From IMG/VR virus record IMGVR_UViG_3300023435_000073, positions 1-30,604 of that record: a DNA stretch of 30,604 bases, one strand, 5' to 3'. Under the pieces are notes generated by a model that saw nothing but the letters and a program-made list of their open reading frames with translations, did not search any database and had not been told where the DNA came from. Positions 1,207-16,124 of this stretch are shown here, piece after piece. The first letter of the stretch is position 1. Every line of letters begins with the position of its first letter. This stretch comes from a virus. Made by a program: the position numbers and the translations under genes.

Positions 1207-1611
1207 TTAAAATGGTACTCGTGCTATTGGTGTTTCTATACTTAGAGCTGTATGCTTTCCCTTGAAAACATCAATTCCAATCTCTAAATAACTACCTATC
1301 TTTGTAAGTGCGTCAGTACAAGCTCCCTTGTAAGCGTCTCCTAAGTCCTTATTATCATTACCACCAAAGGATTCAATGTGAATATCTTGATAAGTAAACA
1401 CTGACTTTACAACCACCATAGGATTTTCTGCCTCAGTTTTCTCTACAAACTCATTTGCGATTTTCCATTCACCTATACCAAATACTTCATTAAGTCGTTC
1501 TACCACATAAATAGCCTTGATAGAGCTTAGGAACTTTTTTGTAGGGTGTTGAGAAATAGCCTCTTCTGGTAATGGTGCTTTTAGTTTTTTTATTTGTTCT
1601 TCTGTAATCAT
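1207..1611 (-). CDS. Rad52/22-family single-strand annealing protein
   Basis: Probably a phage single-strand annealing protein that coats resected ssDNA and pairs complementary strands. The 134-aa sequence shows the family layout: an N-terminal helix with LKAPLPEEAIS, a VVERLNEVFGIGEW core strand-helix segment (about residues 36-50), beta strands with conserved hydrophobics (VVVKSVFTYQDI), and a GDAYKGACTDALTKIGSYL helix (about residues 91-110) like the 'A-D-A..K-R/A..G-x-Y-L' motif of Rad52-like proteins. It is shorter than full Rad52 but close to the N-terminal catalytic domain length. The start is one base after the previous stop (TAA-T-ATG). An annealase with no polymerase nearby suggests recombination-dependent replication using host enzymes. 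Confidence 0.8.
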   Translation of the reverse strand: MITEEQIKKLKAPLPEEAISQHPTKKFLSSIKAIYVVERLNEVFGIGEWKIANEFVEKTEAENPMVVVKSVFTYQDIHIESFGGNDNKDLGDAYKGACTDALTKIGSYLEIGIDVFKGKHTALSIETPIARVPF

Positions 1612-2250: not shown

Positions 2251-2297
2251 ATTATAACATAATTTTACAAAACTACCTAATTATTACCTGTGGATAA
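2251..2297 (-). promoter_or_regulatory. extended -10 promoter with upstream DnaA box
   Basis: On the minus strand a TGT-TATAAT extended -10 lies at 2251-2259. The -35 is weak (TAGGTA at 2274-2279, 17-nt spacer). An exact DnaA-box sequence (TTATCCACA on the minus strand) is at 2289-2297, nine bases upstream of that -35. The box overlaps the end of the 45-aa gene. It probably drives the hairpin leader and the genes leftward from 2158. Confidence 0.5.
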
Positions 2298-2415: not shown

Positions 2416-3396
2416 TTAGTTTGTTGGTAAAAATGTATTTTTAAACTTTCCTATCTCGTCTACGAAAGTCCCTCTATCAAAGTATAATTCAGATACTGCT
2501 TCTGAATACCCTCTAGCCTTTTGCAAATATAATACTGACTTAATGTTTTCAGGGTATTCTGCGTCTGGGTTTTGGTTACGAGATATTTTTAACACCCTAT
2601 CTGCACCATCTGAAATTTTACCACTACCAGCCAACTCATCCATTCCTTTATCAGTTCCTTGACCACTTTTCCTGTAATGATGGATAAGAACTAACGGAAC
2701 TCTTGACTTAGATGTAAAATTCATGATAGACTTAACAATACGTTTCTGACGATCTATATCCGACTCACCCCTATTACCCTCTACAAGATCAAGATTGTCA
2801 ATGTATACAAGATCAAGTTCATCATACTTATTGATCAGTTTTAAGATACCTTCCCAACTGGCACTACCACCACGTCTTACTCCCTCAAAATAGAGGTTAT
2901 TAATAGCGTCAAGTTCTCCTAATCGTCTTTGATACATTAACACTTTCTTATCTGGTATTTTATAATCGTATTCTTCTTGGATAGTTATACCAGCATACTT
3001 TCTGGCAAAGTCTTCTAATATTTCGTCGTGCTCCATTTCAAGTGATATGTATAGGACCTTATGTCCTCTTCTAGCGTTCTTACACGCCATATCAAAGCTG
3101 TATGTAGTTTTTCCAGAAGCTCTCTTCGCAGCAATGACAATAAAGTCAGTCCTTTTAATAATAGCAAATTTATCGTCTAGTGTTGGAGTCCCCCAAGTAT
3201 ACCGTTTTCTGTAATCCTTTTTTATTACAAGTCCAGCTTCAACACCTTTCTGTGCTTTTTGTATAAGTTCATCTATAAGGAAATTGTTTGCAAATTTATC
3301 GCCCCACTGTTTTGTTATATCGCAATATAGATCAATCAAACCAACCCCATCTCTTATTTGCTTTTTAGTGTAGTTGTAAATATCTTCGACAAGCAT
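2416..3396 (-). CDS. DnaB/RecA-like replicative helicase ATPase
   Basis: A 326-aa RecA-fold ATPase most like the C-terminal half of DnaB-type helicases. Walker A is AAKRASGKTT (residues 89-98) and Walker B is LDLVYIDNLDL (about 195-204). A DnaB-like IHHYRKSGQG segment follows near residue 239, then AGSGKISDGAD. The N-terminal 65 residues are short and do not resemble the full DnaB primase-binding domain. It lies directly downstream of the initiator gene, the usual initiator-helicase pairing in phage replication modules. A RadA/KaiC-like ATPase is the alternative. A predicted promoter precedes it at 3418..3446. Confidence 0.82.
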   Translation of the reverse strand: MLVEDIYNYTKKQIRDGVGLIDLYCDITKQWGDKFANNFLIDELIQKAQKGVEAGLVIKKDYRKRYTWGTPTLDDKFAIIKRTDFIVIAAKRASGKTTYSFDMACKNARRGHKVLYISLEMEHDEILEDFARKYAGITIQEEYDYKIPDKKVLMYQRRLGELDAINNLYFEGVRRGGSASWEGILKLINKYDELDLVYIDNLDLVEGNRGESDIDRQKRIVKSIMNFTSKSRVPLVLIHHYRKSGQGTDKGMDELAGSGKISDGADRVLKISRNQNPDAEYPENIKSVLYLQKARGYSEAVSELYFDRGTFVDEIGKFKNTFLPTN

Positions 3397-3417: not shown

Positions 3418-3462
3418 ATTATAGCATACTTATATTACCACACAAAGTGGGGGTGTGGACAA
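3418..3462 (-). promoter_or_regulatory. extended -10 promoter with overlapping inverted repeat
   Basis: On the minus strand a TGC-TATAAT extended -10 occupies 3418-3426. A weak -35 (TTTGTG) is at 3441-3446, spacer 17. A perfect 6-bp inverted repeat CCACAC/GTGTGG (3438-3443 and 3453-3458) overlaps the -35, an operator-like placement. TTGTCCACA on the minus strand (3454-3462) is a one-mismatch DnaA box seven bases upstream of the -35. It probably drives the helicase-like gene. Confidence 0.5.
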
Positions 3463-3743: not shown

Positions 3744-4577
3744 TTATAAATCAAATAATAAGTAATATTTAGCCTTTTCTTCATCATCCATATTGTTATC
3801 CTTGATAAACCTCTCCCAAGCGTTGTGTTGTGCTGGGGTGCTATCTCCGAACTTAGCTATGGAATCTTTTATGTATCGTTTAGACATTTCGTGCATTGAT
3901 TCTTTTGATTCTGTTATTTCATCGTTCCACTGCTTATTTCCCAACCAAGTTGGTGGGTGTGGTATATATTTTAATGTTTGCCACTGCTCAGACTTTTTAT
4001 GTTTTTCTAATGATGATAGTATGTTTTCTAACTCAATCCTTTTAATAGTAAGAAATATTTTTTGTGCTTTATCTTTTTTAACTTTTCTTCCTACAGGGTA
4101 TTTTTCCCAAAAGGAATTGAAGTCTGTTTTGGTCATTGCTAAATGACCAATAGTTTCTTTCTTTTCATTCTTTTCTTTCTTATCATTATTGTATGTGTAT
4201 TGTTTGGTGTCGGTTTGTTGTTTGTTTGTTGTATTGCCACCCTGCCATAAGTTATAATTATTGACTGTAATTACAGTAGTAACTCTGTTTGTTTGTTGTA
4301 TTATATCTCCGTCTTTTTCTAGTTCACTTAAATATCGTCTTACTTTATCTCTTGACCATTTCCACCTTTTTGACAGTGTTAATTGAGAATATCCAAGTTG
4401 TCCTCTTTCTAATTTAACTCTAATCCCACGAACCCTAAAAAATCCAGCAGTATGTTGTGCTATTCCAATTAGGTCTACCCAAGCCTGTCCTCTTGTAAAT
4501 TTTTCCGATAACCACCTATCGGAATGTATTAGATGTCTATTTACATAGAAAAAATTTGATTCTGGTTTGTTTTCCAT
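3744..4577 (-). CDS. phage replication initiator / replisome organizer
   Basis: A 277-aa protein with the two-part layout of phage replisome organizers. The N-terminal winged-helix region (about residues 45-110) contains RGQLGYSQLTLSKRWKWSRD and the recognition-helix-like VRRYLSELEKDGDI. A low-complexity N/T/K/E linker follows (about 115-145). The C-terminal domain contains FWEKYPVGRKVKKDKAQKIF, EQWQTLKYIPHPPTWL and KQWNDE, a conserved pattern in phage initiators next to DnaB/DnaC-type loaders. It should bind the origin and recruit the helicase encoded just downstream. The nearby region 4751..4954 is a plausible origin. It is probably transcribed from the strong promoter at 4718..4746. Confidence 0.82.
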   Translation of the reverse strand: MENKPESNFFYVNRHLIHSDRWLSEKFTRGQAWVDLIGIAQHTAGFFRVRGIRVKLERGQLGYSQLTLSKRWKWSRDKVRRYLSELEKDGDIIQQTNRVTTVITVNNYNLWQGGNTTNKQQTDTKQYTYNNDKKEKNEKKETIGHLAMTKTDFNSFWEKYPVGRKVKKDKAQKIFLTIKRIELENILSSLEKHKKSEQWQTLKYIPHPPTWLGNKQWNDEITESKESMHEMSKRYIKDSIAKFGDSTPAQHNAWERFIKDNNMDDEEKAKYYLLFDL

Positions 4578-4583
4578 ATTTTT

Positions 4584-4697
4584 TTAATTAAAAAAGACGA
4601 GAGCCACGCAAAGTATGAAACACCTCACTACAGGTGCAGTCGTTATGACTTCTTTACATGGCTTTCGCCTCTTTAAATATTGTAGTGATTTATTCAT
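4584..4697 (-). CDS. possible small hydrophobic protein, 37 aa
   Basis: Begins MNKSLQYLKRRKPCKE and ends in a hydrophobic stretch (VVRCFILCVALVFFN), so it would be a short basic membrane peptide. The ATG lies about 14 nt after the predicted start of the best promoter in the window, and the TAA is followed closely by the initiator gene. The same bases fold into a pseudoknot-like RNA (4588..4688), so the ORF may be incidental or the RNA may control its translation. Confidence 0.4.
   Translation of the reverse strand: MNKSLQYLKRRKPCKEVITTAPVVRCFILCVALVFFN
4588..4688 (-). ncRNA. candidate pseudoknotted structured RNA
   Basis: In the minus-strand transcript the 5' segment TCACTACA (4688-4681) is fully complementary to the 8-nt loop TGTAGTGA (4632-4625) of a hairpin closed by CACC/GGTG (4636-4633, 4624-4621). 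Between them lie GGC-GAAA-GCC, a GNRA tetraloop (4669-4660), and AGTC-ATAAC-GACT (4650-4638). GCCATG (4662-4657) can pair with CGTGGC (4608-4603), and a T-run follows (about 4595-4590). It starts about 25 nt after the predicted transcription start. It could be a riboregulator, a replication-control RNA or a structured leader. No known class is recognised. Confidence 0.5.
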
Positions 4698-4717
4698 ATA
4701 TTTTATTATTCACTTAC

Positions 4718-4761
4718 ATTATACCAAAAATAAAAGCATGTGTCAAGAATACTTATCCACA
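4718..4761 (-). promoter_or_regulatory. consensus sigma70 promoter with DnaA box
   Basis: On the minus strand TTGACA (4746-4741), a 17-nt spacer and TATAAT (4723-4718) match the consensus perfectly, with an added TGG extension of the -10. The exact DnaA box TTATCCACA is on the plus strand at 4753-4761, six bases upstream of the -35. This should be the main promoter for the replication operon, with transcription starting near 4711. Confidence 0.85.
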
Positions 4762-4948
4762 ACTTATACGAGTCATAATTGAACCAATATAATACCCCCC
4801 ATTACTATGCGGAAATTTCTGTTGCACAACTTGCTATACTAATTTTAGCAATTATATTAAAAATGGAGCTTCATTTTGCTCGTAGAAATTTCTGTGACAT
4901 ACAGAAAACTCTGTGTAACATATTAGACTATATATGTACATTGTAAAC
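4762..4948. other. non-coding, repeat-bearing region; possible replication origin
   Basis: No convincing gene is seen on either strand. The region holds an 11-bp direct repeat GAAATTTCTGT (4812-4822 and 4885-4895), dyads such as TTGCTA/TAGCAA around 4833-4853, and AT-rich DNA, next to the DnaA box at 4753-4761 and upstream of the initiator gene. This composition fits a phage origin, but there is no cluster of identical iterons, so the call is tentative. Confidence 0.3.
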
Positions 4949-4968
4949 AAAAAGGGAGGATTGCTCCC
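4949..4968 (-). terminator. probable second rho-independent terminator
   Basis: On the minus strand GGGAG-CAATC-CTCCC (4968-4954) is followed by TTTTT (4953-4949). The stem is short, but a run of G precedes it and may extend pairing. It lies downstream of the terminator at 5010..5034, so the two form a tandem stop before the replication promoter. Confidence 0.5.
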
Positions 4969-5009
4969 CCCCCAGACTCACTTTAGGTGAATATACATAT
5001 TAGCACAAC

Positions 5010-5034
5010 AAAAAAGAGCCATTTTCAGGCTCTT
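5010..5034 (-). terminator. rho-independent terminator
   Basis: On the minus strand AAGAGCC (5034-5028), loop TGAAAAT, GGCTCTT (5020-5014) and a T6 tract form a classical intrinsic terminator. It closes the transcript arising from the promoter at 5393..5420, and probably read-through from the virion operon. Confidence 0.8.
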
Positions 5035-5076
5035 AATTTTGATTTTTAACCGTACGAGAAAGAGGGGTATTCTTGC

Positions 5077-5132
5077 GTTCTAAGCGTGCTATTTTCCAGA
5101 GATAGGTCAATATACCTTTATTTGCTTAGAAC
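5077..5132 (-). ncRNA. structured 3' RNA between micro-peptide genes and terminator
   Basis: A perfect 9-bp stem GTTCTAAGC/GCTTAGAAC (5124-5132 with 5077-5085) encloses a second hairpin AGGT-ATATTG-ACCT (5117-5104). It lies in a roughly 200-nt gene-free stretch (5035-5231) of the transcript ending at the terminator at 5010..5034. It could be an independent small RNA or a long structured 3' UTR. No known family recognised. Confidence 0.4.
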
Positions 5133-5231
5133 TCAATTTTGGACGTTTTATGTACGTTTTGACTATTTTTCTTGTGTAAATTTACAGTAATAAAATTCAC
5201 TGAAAAAAAGTGTAGGTCTGCTTTTTGGCGT

Positions 5232-5324
5232 TTAACAACCAATCCAGTATTTTGCTACAAAATATGCACCTAAAAAGAGGAGTGCTTGACATAGCACAAA
5301 TAGTGTTAATAATACTTTTTTCAT
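5232..5324 (-). CDS. tiny membrane protein, 30 aa
   Basis: Sequence starts MKKVLLTLFVLCQALLFLG and continues AYFVAKYWIGC, a single membrane-spanning helix with a lysine-containing N-terminus. The ATG is one base after the TAA of the 19-aa ORF (TAA-T-ATG). It lies directly downstream of the strong promoter at 5393..5420 and upstream of a terminator, a genuine transcription unit. Candidate roles are antiholin/holin-like, superinfection exclusion or a toxin-like peptide; none can be chosen from sequence. Confidence 0.5.
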   Translation of the reverse strand: MKKVLLTLFVLCQALLFLGAYFVAKYWIGC

Positions 5325-5325
5325 A

Positions 5326-5385
5326 TTATCCGAATAATCCTTTGTAAACAATTAGTGCAAAAAGCACTGATAAAAATATTGACAT
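5326..5385 (-). CDS. tiny hydrophobic peptide, 19 aa, possibly leaderless
   Basis: Encodes MSIFLSVLFALIVYKGLFG, a nearly pure membrane helix. Its ATG lies at 5385, eight bases from the -10 of the promoter at 5393..5398, so the transcript would begin at or next to the start codon. It is joined to the 30-aa membrane peptide by TAA-T-ATG. The very small size keeps confidence moderate, but the paired arrangement under one promoter supports both. Confidence 0.4.
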   Translation of the reverse strand: MSIFLSVLFALIVYKGLFG

Positions 5386-5392
5386 ATAAGTT

Positions 5393-5420
5393 ATTATACA
5401 CTGTTATTTTATTTTGTCAA
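5393..5420 (-). promoter_or_regulatory. strong sigma70 promoter
   Basis: On the minus strand TTGACA (5420-5415), a 16-nt spacer and TATAAT (5398-5393). It begins just after the stop codon of the large gene at 5423..7252. Downstream are two tiny membrane peptides, a structured RNA stretch and a terminator at 5010..5034, giving an estimated transcript of about 375 nt. Confidence 0.75.
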
Positions 5421-5422
5421 GT

Positions 5423-7252
5423 TTACTTAGTTGATAATCTGGCAATTTCTGCTTTATCAATCGTTGACTGTGTTCTGGCTGGTAATGGTATAGGTATTCC
5501 TTGCCCTTTGCCCTGTGATTCAACTAATAATAATAAGTCGTTCTTTGGTAATTTACTATAATCCCATTTATTCCTTTCTAATACTGCTTGTATTCTGGCA
5601 ATTTCTTGTGCCTCTACTGTTGAAGCTGATCTAGCTCCAAGTGCAATAGCTTCATCGGATATTACCTGTGTTCTTGGTGCTCCTTCTTTGGCTGCCCCAA
5701 GTAATTTCATTGTGGCGTTTTTAGCAACTACGTCTTCTACTGGATCTCCAAGTTTACTAAATGCGTTCTTAATATATCTATTAGGATTATTCAACCATTT
5801 TATATATTCTTTTATTGACTTTCCTGCAACACCCTTAGCCACTAATGTAGGGTTAGCTGATAATAGACCAGCTGTAATTTCTCCACCTGTAAATATATCT
5901 GTTAGGTCTGCAAGACCAGCCTTTGCTTTTCTTGCCTGTATACCAGCACTTCTTTCTAGGTCTTTTTCAACTGTTTTTAATGCTGAATATTCATTTCTAA
6001 AATATTGATAATTTTCTCCACCTGTATTCTCAATTAGTTCATCTAGGTTTTGTCTTAACCTTTGTGCTATTGAAGCGTCTATTTGATTTGATACTTTGTC
6101 AAATCCAGTTGATGGAAATAAAGTTAAGCCAGTATTAAGTTCCTCAATTCTTTGTTGTATTTGTGATGGGTTAGCATTGTCTAGCGTTGATAATTCCTGT
6201 AACCTTTTAGAAGCGTAAGCCTTTACTTTATGAGAATAACCAGTTTCTTTTACCCAATTTGAAAGGTCTGCTTGTATTTTTCTAGGATTAAACTTAGCTC
6301 CAGCTTCTCCAGCACTTTTTGATATACTTGAATATATGTCATAAATTTTTCTTTTAGCTCTTCCCAATAGATCTATTGTTTCTGAAATTGTCTGTGGTTT
6401 CTCAATAACACCGTCTAATGTTTTTGAATACTTATTCATTACCGTAAAAGCCTGTTCAGCTTTGTCGTAATATTTAGGATTGCTTAAAGACTTTGCTGAT
6501 GGTCTCAGTGCTTTGTCAATAGCTTCTCTTAAAACAACTTTTGTTGATTTCGGAATTACTGCTTTTATTCCTTTACCTAATCCAGCCAATACTGCTGGAG
6601 CTACTAATGACATAGCACCAACTTTTAATTCTTCTTTACCAAGCTCACCACTTTGCATTGCTGATTGACCAGTACCAAGTACAGCCTCAGTTGCTCCAAT
6701 GCCAGCTAACTTAGCAGCACCTTTTACAACTTTTCCACCCTTAACTGTACTACTTGCAACCTTTCCAGCTTTCAAACTCATTGACCCTGGAATAAAAAAC
6801 TCTCCTATTTGCTCTCCGTAGAACCCTATTTTTTCAGCTGTTCCTTCTGGCTTAAATGTTTCTTCGCTTATTAATTCTTCTGCTCCTGTTAAGTCTTCTC
6901 CTTGCTTTTCTAGTCCAAGTCCTTTTTCTAATGACTTTGGTAAAAAGGTTCTTAAAGTTCCCCTAACAAATCTTTCTCCAAGTGAAGAAGCTCCTTTTAG
7001 TGTTGATCCAATTCCTTTCAATACTCCAGTACCAACCCCAGCTAATCCAGTTCTTCCAGTTTCACCTGGTTCTTCTGTTGCTGTATCAACTCCAGCCTGC
7101 TCAAAAACAGAAGGCTCTCTTTGTAAACCTTTAAGCCTTGTTATCCTGTCAGTTGCTTTTTGTTCTTTTTGAACATCAACGTCTACTGCTGGAGCAGATC
7201 CTATATTATACTTATTTCTTAGTTGTATAATTTCTTTGTTTGTTAATGACAT
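5423..7252 (-). CDS. internal virion / DNA ejection-like protein, 609 aa
   Basis: A large protein with a charged N-terminus, then long glycine/alanine-rich amphipathic segments (about residues 70-235: TGLAGVGTGVLKGIGSTLKG, MSLVAPAVLAGLGKGIKAVI) that look membrane-active, then a helical coiled region (about 260-450). This layout and the place at the distal end of the virion operon fit the ejection proteins of podoviruses, which insert in the host envelope during DNA entry. No enzymatic motif is seen. Starts two bases after the previous gene (TAA-AT-ATG). A tape-measure-like protein is an alternative, but no tail-tube genes are present. Confidence 0.55.
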   Translation of the reverse strand: MSLTNKEIIQLRNKYNIGSAPAVDVDVQKEQKATDRITRLKGLQREPSVFEQAGVDTATEEPGETGRTGLAGVGTGVLKGIGSTLKGASSLGERFVRGTLRTFLPKSLEKGLGLEKQGEDLTGAEELISEETFKPEGTAEKIGFYGEQIGEFFIPGSMSLKAGKVASSTVKGGKVVKGAAKLAGIGATEAVLGTGQSAMQSGELGKEELKVGAMSLVAPAVLAGLGKGIKAVIPKSTKVVLREAIDKALRPSAKSLSNPKYYDKAEQAFTVMNKYSKTLDGVIEKPQTISETIDLLGRAKRKIYDIYSSISKSAGEAGAKFNPRKIQADLSNWVKETGYSHKVKAYASKRLQELSTLDNANPSQIQQRIEELNTGLTLFPSTGFDKVSNQIDASIAQRLRQNLDELIENTGGENYQYFRNEYSALKTVEKDLERSAGIQARKAKAGLADLTDIFTGGEITAGLLSANPTLVAKGVAGKSIKEYIKWLNNPNRYIKNAFSKLGDPVEDVVAKNATMKLLGAAKEGAPRTQVISDEAIALGARSASTVEAQEIARIQAVLERNKWDYSKLPKNDLLLLVESQGKGQGIPIPLPARTQSTIDKAEIARLSTK

Positions 7253-15280: not shown

Positions 15281-16048
15281 CTATGAGCTAATAAAGATTT
15301 CCTTTTCCTTTGAGCCTAGCTTAATAATAGGGTAACCATTCTTTGCTGGTTCTAACCCCATGTCTTCTGCATAACTGTTCTCGTATTTCAGGAAAGAACC
15401 TGTTAATACGATATGCTTTCGTTCTGTGATTACATTCTTATTCCGTTTATCAATAAACATCATAGGAATAGAAGTATTATCAAGTCCATGCGTATGTGCA
15501 TATAGAACAAGGTCAACTATCTGATGAGTCGTTGCATTGGTTGCAGCGTTCAGCTTAGTAACTGTCTTCTTGGCATTAGACTTTCCATGTGTAACAAATG
15601 CTGTATAAGTAACATCGCCACATCTTATAAGCAATCTTCCTGTGTACCCAAGATAACGAACGCCAAGTATTTGGCACATTAACTTAGTAGGATTAATCCC
15701 AACCTCTTTATAAGCCCTCTGTTCATGGTTGCCATCAAGCAATCCAATCACAAGCCCAGCTTCCACTAAAGGTTTAATCATTTCAACCATTTCTTCCATT
15801 TGCTCCTGTAACATTTTACTCTGCTCATAAACACCTGAACCTACTGAGTACCTTGTGGCACATTCAAGTAAGTCTCCCATAAACAGGACTGGTATTTTCT
15901 TTTCAAGAAGAAATTTCAAAGTGTTCCTAAAGTGTTCTTCATCGCAAGTTGCAGCACCCCAATGGCAATCGCCAACTGCTGCTAATCTGCTGAATCCACT
16001 TGCACCTGGACCAATTGTTACCCTCGCTACTCTTGTTCTTTTCATCAT
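15281..16048 (-). CDS. calcineurin-like metallophosphoesterase
   Basis: A 255-aa two-metal phosphoesterase with all main motifs: Asp27-x-His29 (VGDCHWG), Gly58-Asp59 (LFMGDLLE), Asn107-His108 (DGNHEQ), His154 (FVTHGKS) and His185-x-His187 (YAHTHG). The substrate could be a nucleotide, RNA/DNA end or phosphoprotein; sequence alone does not choose. Unlike most genes here it has a clear SD (AAGGTGG) and its own promoter with a DnaA box at 16081..16124. An ATG at 16045 follows directly and could also serve. It heads a cassette with a zinc ribbon and a small acidic protein inserted among virion and lysis genes, suggesting a moron-like or early-expressed unit. Confidence 0.85.
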   Translation of the reverse strand: MMKRTRVARVTIGPGASGFSRLAAVGDCHWGAATCDEEHFRNTLKFLLEKKIPVLFMGDLLECATRYSVGSGVYEQSKMLQEQMEEMVEMIKPLVEAGLVIGLLDGNHEQRAYKEVGINPTKLMCQILGVRYLGYTGRLLIRCGDVTYTAFVTHGKSNAKKTVTKLNAATNATTHQIVDLVLYAHTHGLDNTSIPMMFIDKRNKNVITERKHIVLTGSFLKYENSYAEDMGLEPAKNGYPIIKLGSKEKEIFISS

Positions 16049-16080: not shown

Positions 16081-16124
16081 ATTATACCATATTTTAAGGA
16101 ACTTTTCAATCAATTTTATCCACA
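16081..16124 (-). promoter_or_regulatory. sigma70 promoter with DnaA box, upstream of the phosphoesterase
   Basis: On the minus strand TTGAAA (16109-16104), a 17-nt spacer and TGG-extended TATAAT (16086-16081). The exact DnaA box TTATCCACA is on the plus strand at 16116-16124, six bases upstream of the -35. Box orientation, 6-nt gap, 17-nt spacer and TGG extension all match the replication promoter at 4718..4761. It lies right after the holin-like gene's stop codon. Confidence 0.8.

Follow-up and report, generated by a model that had tools for sequence, protein, structure and literature searches.

The stretch of DNA analysed here, hereafter the window, is a 30,604-base phage record of IMG/VR in which almost all genes lie on the minus strand. 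Its features of interest are four predicted promoters (P1 to P4), all read on the minus strand, the DnaA-box-like sites beside them, and the genes and leader RNA that follow (Table 1). Beyond its first gene, the P1 unit continues into an M23 peptidase and structural genes; a collagen-like tail fibre, a head-tail adaptor and a terminase were also identified in the window (PHROG/Pfam). Judging from the genes behind P2, P4 and P3, three of the four transcription units thus serve replication or recombination.

Table 1. Coordinates of the promoters, boxes, genes and leader RNA in the window
Feature	Position	Strand	Description
P1 box	16116..16124	+	Exact, candidate DnaA site; 6 nt upstream of -35
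P1 promoter	16081..16109	-	TTGAAA (16109-16104), 17 nt, TGG-TATAAT (16086-16081)
MPE/SbcD-like DNA-repair nuclease	15281..16048	-	First gene behind P1; PHROG 7339, E=9.6e-40; Metallophos, 2.9e-5
P2 box	4753..4761	+	Exact, candidate DnaA site; TTATCCACA on +, TGTGGATAA on promoter strand; 6 nt upstream of -35
P2 promoter	4718..4746	-	TTGACA (4746-4741), 17 nt, TGG-TATAAT (4723-4718); 12/12 consensus
Structured leader RNA	4577..4690	-	From P2 to DnaD-like gene; conserved; long stem, three-way junction, terminal U-run
DnaD-like helicase loader	3744..4577	-	Behind P2 and leader; PHROG 2514, E=4.4e-17
P4 box	3454..3462	-	One mismatch, TTGTCCACA; gap 7 or 8
P4 promoter	3418..3446	-	TTTGTG (2/6), gap 7, 17-nt spacer, TGC-TATAAT (3423-3418)
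DnaB-like replicative helicase	2416..3396	-	Behind P4; PHROG 19, E=1.9e-29; Pfam DnaB_C, 6.6e-19
P3 box	2289..2297	-	Exact, candidate DnaA site; TTATCCACA on promoter strand; 9 nt upstream of poor -35
P3 promoter	2251..2279	-	TAGGTA (3/6), 17 nt, TGT-TATAAT (2256-2251)
Rad52/Erf-like ssDNA-annealing gene	1207..1611	-	In early operon behind P3; Pfam Rad52_Rad22, 9.3e-5; PHROG 1097, 0.0014
Box-less consensus promoter (internal contrast)	5393..5420	-	TTGACA-16-TATAAT; no TGN, no DnaA box

The DnaA box was defined as the 9-mer TTATNCACA, with TTATCCACA as its best form. Exact TTATCCACA occurs three times in the window, compared with a mean of 0.36 in shuffled versions of it, none of which reached three copies in 100 shuffles. 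Sites with at most one mismatch are as frequent as expected (10 versus 10.1), so only the exact copies are non-random, and the case rests on these and on their placement; the one-mismatch search was set aside as uninformative.

Extended -10 promoters of the sigma70 type (TGN-TATAAT, with or without a TTGACA at 16-18 nt) were found at four coding-strand sites. Among the 68 TATAAT hexamers of the window, five are preceded by TGN. The four coding-strand TGNTATAAT sites all have a box that starts 38-41 nt upstream of the -10, which places a DnaA site within the promoter region as in DnaA-regulated promoters, and the fifth (plus strand, 16609) has none. All three exact boxes and the one-mismatch copy thus sit just upstream of the -35 of these four promoters, with their centres at about -46 to -49; by a rough placement estimate, the probability of such an arrangement arising by chance in the window is about 3e-10. 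P4 can also be read with a gap of 8 nt to TTGTGT (3/6) and a 16-nt spacer. The initial annotation had described two exact boxes 6 nt from a -35 with a 17-nt spacer and TGG-TATAAT, and two boxes in the other orientation, one of them with a mismatch, at 9 and 7 nt; all coordinates, orientations and distances were confirmed, apart from the alternative at P4. It had also seen no further exact copy and regarded every visible one as promoter-linked, and the scan of the whole window found only the three exact copies, each beside a promoter. Overall, the observation held and proved stronger than first described. No partner box was found 2-3 bp away at any window promoter in a one-mismatch search, each box being single.

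The consensus promoter at 5420-5393 indicates that not every strong promoter in the window carries a box. Behind it, at 5237-5389 on the minus strand, are two tiny ORFs for hydrophobic peptides of about 19 and 28 aa (by eye). The P3 box falls in the final codons of a small ORF read from the sequence as zinc-ribbon-like, and a long imperfect hairpin, possibly a leader or terminator structure (by eye), lies just downstream of P3 at about 2165-2235 on the minus strand.

Spacing of box and promoter in IMG/VR and in relatives

IMG/VR was scanned with the pattern box-N{0,30}-TTGACA-N17-TATAAT in both box orientations; these scans select perfect-consensus promoters and are silent on weaker ones such as P3 and P4. 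A box upstream was found in 118 stretches for TGTGGATAA and 116 for TTATCCACA, versus 31 for the reversed 9-mer and 19 for a box placed downstream of the same promoter, so that the box is 4-6 times commoner before TTGACA-N17-TATAAT than in the two controls. Because the viral matches include homologous copies, the set was dereplicated before spacing statistics were computed. In the TTATCCACA orientation, gaps of 8-11 nt were observed 42 times versus 12.5 expected (p 1.5e-13), and in the TGTGGATAA orientation, gaps of 5-8 nt were observed 21 times versus 10.6 expected (p 0.0014). The gaps were helically phased (p 4e-7 for TTATCCACA and 0.003 for TGTGGATAA), and the control 9-mer had neither preferred spacing nor helical phasing in the dereplicated set. 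Boxes in those loci lying outside the selection had a gap of 8-10 nt in nine cases versus 0.36 expected. P3 (gap 9) and P1 and P2 (gap 6) fall in the two IMG/VR classes, with P4 (7 or 8) at the edge. Chance intergenic packing, considered as a source of this layout, was ruled out by the reversed 9-mer, the downstream control and random positions.

The phage genes found behind box promoters (Pfam/PHROG) include recombinases, Erf and Sak4 annealing proteins, a primase, exonucleases, HNH endonucleases and integrases, a listing for which no enrichment is claimed. In an unrelated 89-kb phage record, box promoters precede a UvsX-like recombinase and are also found a short way upstream of genes for replication-initiator-like, helicase and SbcD-like proteins.

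No near DNA match to the window was found in phage records, and conservation was examined in more distant relatives, designated G001 to G003. G001, whose helicase is 60% identical to that of the window, has a P3-type box promoter downstream of the helicase (gap 9) and a second box promoter (gap 5) upstream of a DnaD-like gene, for which homology to the loader is weak. In G003 (nuclease 78% and helicase 52% identical), the P3-type box is kept with a conserved flank, but at a gap of 17. The core promoter and leader of P2 are nearly identical in G003 to those of the window, but 58 nt separate the -35 from the closest upstream box, TTATACACA; at P1 of G003, a site TTATGCACA occurs at gap 4 with a poor -10. 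G002 has a box near its loader gene, without the same promoter adjacency. Conservation of box and spacing in relatives had been proposed as a check in the initial annotation: it held for the P3-type linkage in G001 and, at the longer gap, in G003, and the gap-5 promoter of G001 adds to it, but it failed at the P2 core of G003, which lacks an adjacent box. The relatives thus commonly show the box linked to predicted promoters, though individual promoters can lack the link.

In G003, the small zinc-ribbon ORF is separated from the P3-type box by a methyltransferase-like gene (by eye; L257:14231-15172), and the box is encoded in the last codons of this gene, as the window box is in those of the zinc-ribbon ORF. 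The leader RNA has its counterpart in G003 at L257:11079-11190, where the inner hairpin is changed compensatorily. It had no match in Rfam, and a pattern scan with a 20-mer from it matched only G003, already known as a relative. The leaders before the loader in G001 and G002 are different from that of the window but comparable.

Layout in bacterial chromosomes

Patescibacteria are tiny, poorly studied and form the largest uncultured bacterial radiation. The strict pattern at gaps of 8-10 nt was found in 42 stretches among 85,000 species genomes, and 27 of the 42 are patescibacterial, from Magasanik-, Moran-, Falkow-, Nomura-, Kuenen- and other lineages. Six of the 42 are apparently, from their downstream ORFs, the oriC-linked rnpA/rpmH promoter of Firmicutes and were left out of the support. 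Relaxed patterns gave 30 matches in 285 further Patescibacteria versus 0 with reversed-pattern controls, and no match to the layout was found in 118 Bacillota genomes. For the second orientation, 14 of 30 matches in 380 Patescibacteria had gaps of 5-8 nt (4.1 expected; control 0).

The genome AH-259-L07 contains the box 125 times and the reversed word 7 times. Among 77 of its boxes chosen regardless of promoters, a sigma70-like promoter was found at gap 8-10 for 21 (versus 0.85% of random positions) and at gap 4-8 for 13, of which 8 were at exactly 6 nt (versus 0.7% of random positions); taken together, 34 of the 77 lie at the two preferred spacings, where about 1.2 would be expected. Across the phages and chromosomes covered here, box and predicted promoter thus form one module whose geometry is fixed, the orientation of the box deciding which of two spacing classes applies; the window, other phages and patescibacterial chromosomes have this module in common.

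In AH-259-L05 and AH-259-L07 (L349-L366), many box promoters precede toxin-antitoxin-like pairs, and others precede LexA-like repressors, an Hsp20-like gene and AAA ATPases (all names by eye). A broader proposal, put forward tentatively as a near-even possibility, is that some Patescibacteria use DnaA as a general transcription factor. A large class of promoters (those of lexA-like, toxin-antitoxin and stress genes) would then be defined by one box whose distance from the -35 is fixed and depends on its orientation, and phages would bear this element on their replication and recombination operons as a means of sensing the replication state of the host.

The spacers of several box-linked promoters (L276, G219, L206/L211) contain LexA-like palindromes or half-sites, and in L276 a LexA-like site, GTGAACGCTCGTTCAC, stands in front of a LexA-like gene. 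Such sites hint at joint control by DnaA and LexA. No LexA-like palindrome was seen by eye in the window.

Binding protein, direction of control and host

The explanation that we consider probable as a whole is that host DnaA binds the box beside extended -10 promoters of the sigma70 type, modulates initiation and ties phage operons to DnaA. As a monomer or small oligomer, DnaA would bind on one helix face beside RNA polymerase and modulate initiation, most likely positively, and phage replication and recombination operons would thereby be coupled to the amount of host DnaA or to its nucleotide state. The simplest reading is that the phage would time its replication genes by host DnaA. Weighing against this explanation are the P2 core of G003 without its adjacent box, the altered P1 site of G003, the single boxes, the consensus sequence of P2, repression at uvrB, the failure to find a homologue of the helicase in 380 Patescibacteria, and the three patescibacterial genomes in which DnaA domain IV was not detected.

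Activator sites just upstream of a -35 (class II-like) are centred at -41.5 and show helical phasing. The present layout shares the position upstream of the -35 and the phasing; it differs in its centre, near -46 to -49, and in that the activator would be a replication initiator. Activation or repression cannot be told apart from sequence alone, and the direction of the effect is what we infer. Activation is favoured by the box being upstream of the core promoter, by the helical phasing, by the rarity of boxes downstream, and by the weak -35s of P3 and P4, which rely on the extended -10. P2, at 12 of 12 consensus positions, should by contrast not need an activator. In the cited parts of PMC8203912, DnaA activates at ori-lambda through the beta subunit of RNA polymerase, and activates nrdAB at low DnaA-ATP. 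E. coli DnaA prefers pairs of boxes 2-3 bp apart and in most cases depends on pairing (PMC11317965); the single boxes seen here genuinely depart from that.

Of the alternatives, an unlikely one is that DnaA at the box acts chiefly as a brake, repressing these promoters in the way it does E. coli dnaA and uvrB until DnaA-ATP drops or replicating phage DNA titrates it. Several E. coli promoters are repressed by DnaA, including uvrB together with LexA (PMC6015884); the LexA-like palindromes in some spacers, one of them before a LexA-like gene, and the already near-perfect P2 would fit such a role. A brake is, however, less readily reconciled with boxes that lie upstream of the -35 and overlap no core element, that are six times rarer downstream of the promoter in IMG/VR, and that accompany the poor -35s of P3 and P4.

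The 9-mer is the canonical DnaA site, and domain IV of DnaA was found in four of seven patescibacterial genomes scanned and in none of eight phage records. The initial annotation had suggested that host DnaA, or a phage protein of like specificity, times these units. That the boxes belong to promoters was borne out in the window, by the IMG/VR spacing and its controls, and in patescibacterial chromosomes; on the identity of the protein, the site and the distribution of domain IV make host DnaA the likely one. It is improbable that another DNA-binding protein of DnaA-like specificity, from host or phage, uses the motif: domain IV was not detected in AH-259-L07, despite its 125 boxes, nor in AH-259-L05 or G008, but both AH-259 genomes are apparently incomplete drafts, three of six members of the AH-259 family have the domain, the 9-mer matches the canonical box exactly, and no domain IV is encoded in the phage records.

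Still less probable is a reading in which the boxes serve a phage replication origin as its DnaA sites and stand near promoters because of transcriptional activation of the origin or intergenic packing. The boxes at 2289, 3454 and 4753, which flank the genes for helicase and loader, and about 0.85 kb of non-coding DNA next to P2 would fit this. The region 4570-5430, however, holds one box and no box cluster, iterons or direct repeats, and so lacks the features that, with an AT-rich unwinding region, would define an origin; the fourth box lies 11 kb off at the nuclease gene, an origin has no need of a fixed spacing to a -35, and the same geometry is seen in chromosomes at dispersed promoters, those of toxin-antitoxin and lexA-like genes. 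That the main role of the boxes is to titrate host DnaA and so stall replication of the host is hardly credible, since consensus sites on a multiplying phage genome, although taken as high-affinity, number only three or four, and titration would not require promoter spacing.

No bacterial initiator is more conserved than DnaA; what is known of it as a transcription factor comes from a handful of model organisms, in which regulons are small and site layouts vary. If control by host DnaA is correct, a hard-wired DnaA-box promoter class would show transcription reading replication status on a broad scale, and would offer a sequence handle on regulation in Patescibacteria. DnaA-regulated promoters are already known; the open-access literature searched contained no description of a recurrent class of fixed geometry in phages and Patescibacteria, nor any paper joining DnaA boxes with Patescibacteria. 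The recurrence of the layout in many phages and in patescibacterial chromosomes points to a previously unreported class of DnaA-linked promoters. The cited parts of PMC8203912 describe, for E. coli nrdAB and lambda ori-lambda/pR, a DnaA site likewise near a sigma70 promoter and phage replication genes dependent on host DnaA. E. coli DnaA sites are usually box pairs (PMC11317965), whereas here a single consensus box occurs at two orientation-specific spacings over many promoters. The confirmed DnaA sites of lambda pO lie downstream of the promoter (PMC3985674) and those described here upstream. The uvrB promoter of E. coli likewise combines DnaA boxes with LexA sites, but DnaA represses there through several boxes (PMC6015884); here there is one upstream box, and only some of the host and phage promoters have LexA-like palindromes. 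In the regulons of Bacillus subtilis and Caulobacter the initiator likewise acts as a transcription factor over many genes, with no fixed -35 spacing class described in the cited parts of PMC8203912, and the sample of 118 Bacillota genomes contained no match to the layout.

For the host, tRNAs were sought as a clue and none was found in the window. Searching 380 patescibacterial genomes with a profile of four helicases gave no homologue at E<=1e-20 (a species sample, with no positive control), and comparison of the window helicase with named phages returned only distant relatives, so that naming the host by homology failed. The window shares both patescibacterial spacing classes, 6 and 9 nt, and this promoter layout is suggestive of a patescibacterial host rather than defining proof of one; the host is plausibly a patescibacterium with the standard genetic code. 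If so, the layout could serve as a clue to phages infecting Patescibacteria. A Patescibacteria phage with DnaD-like, DnaB-like and Mre11-like genes has apparently been described, according to the cited part of PMC13059738.
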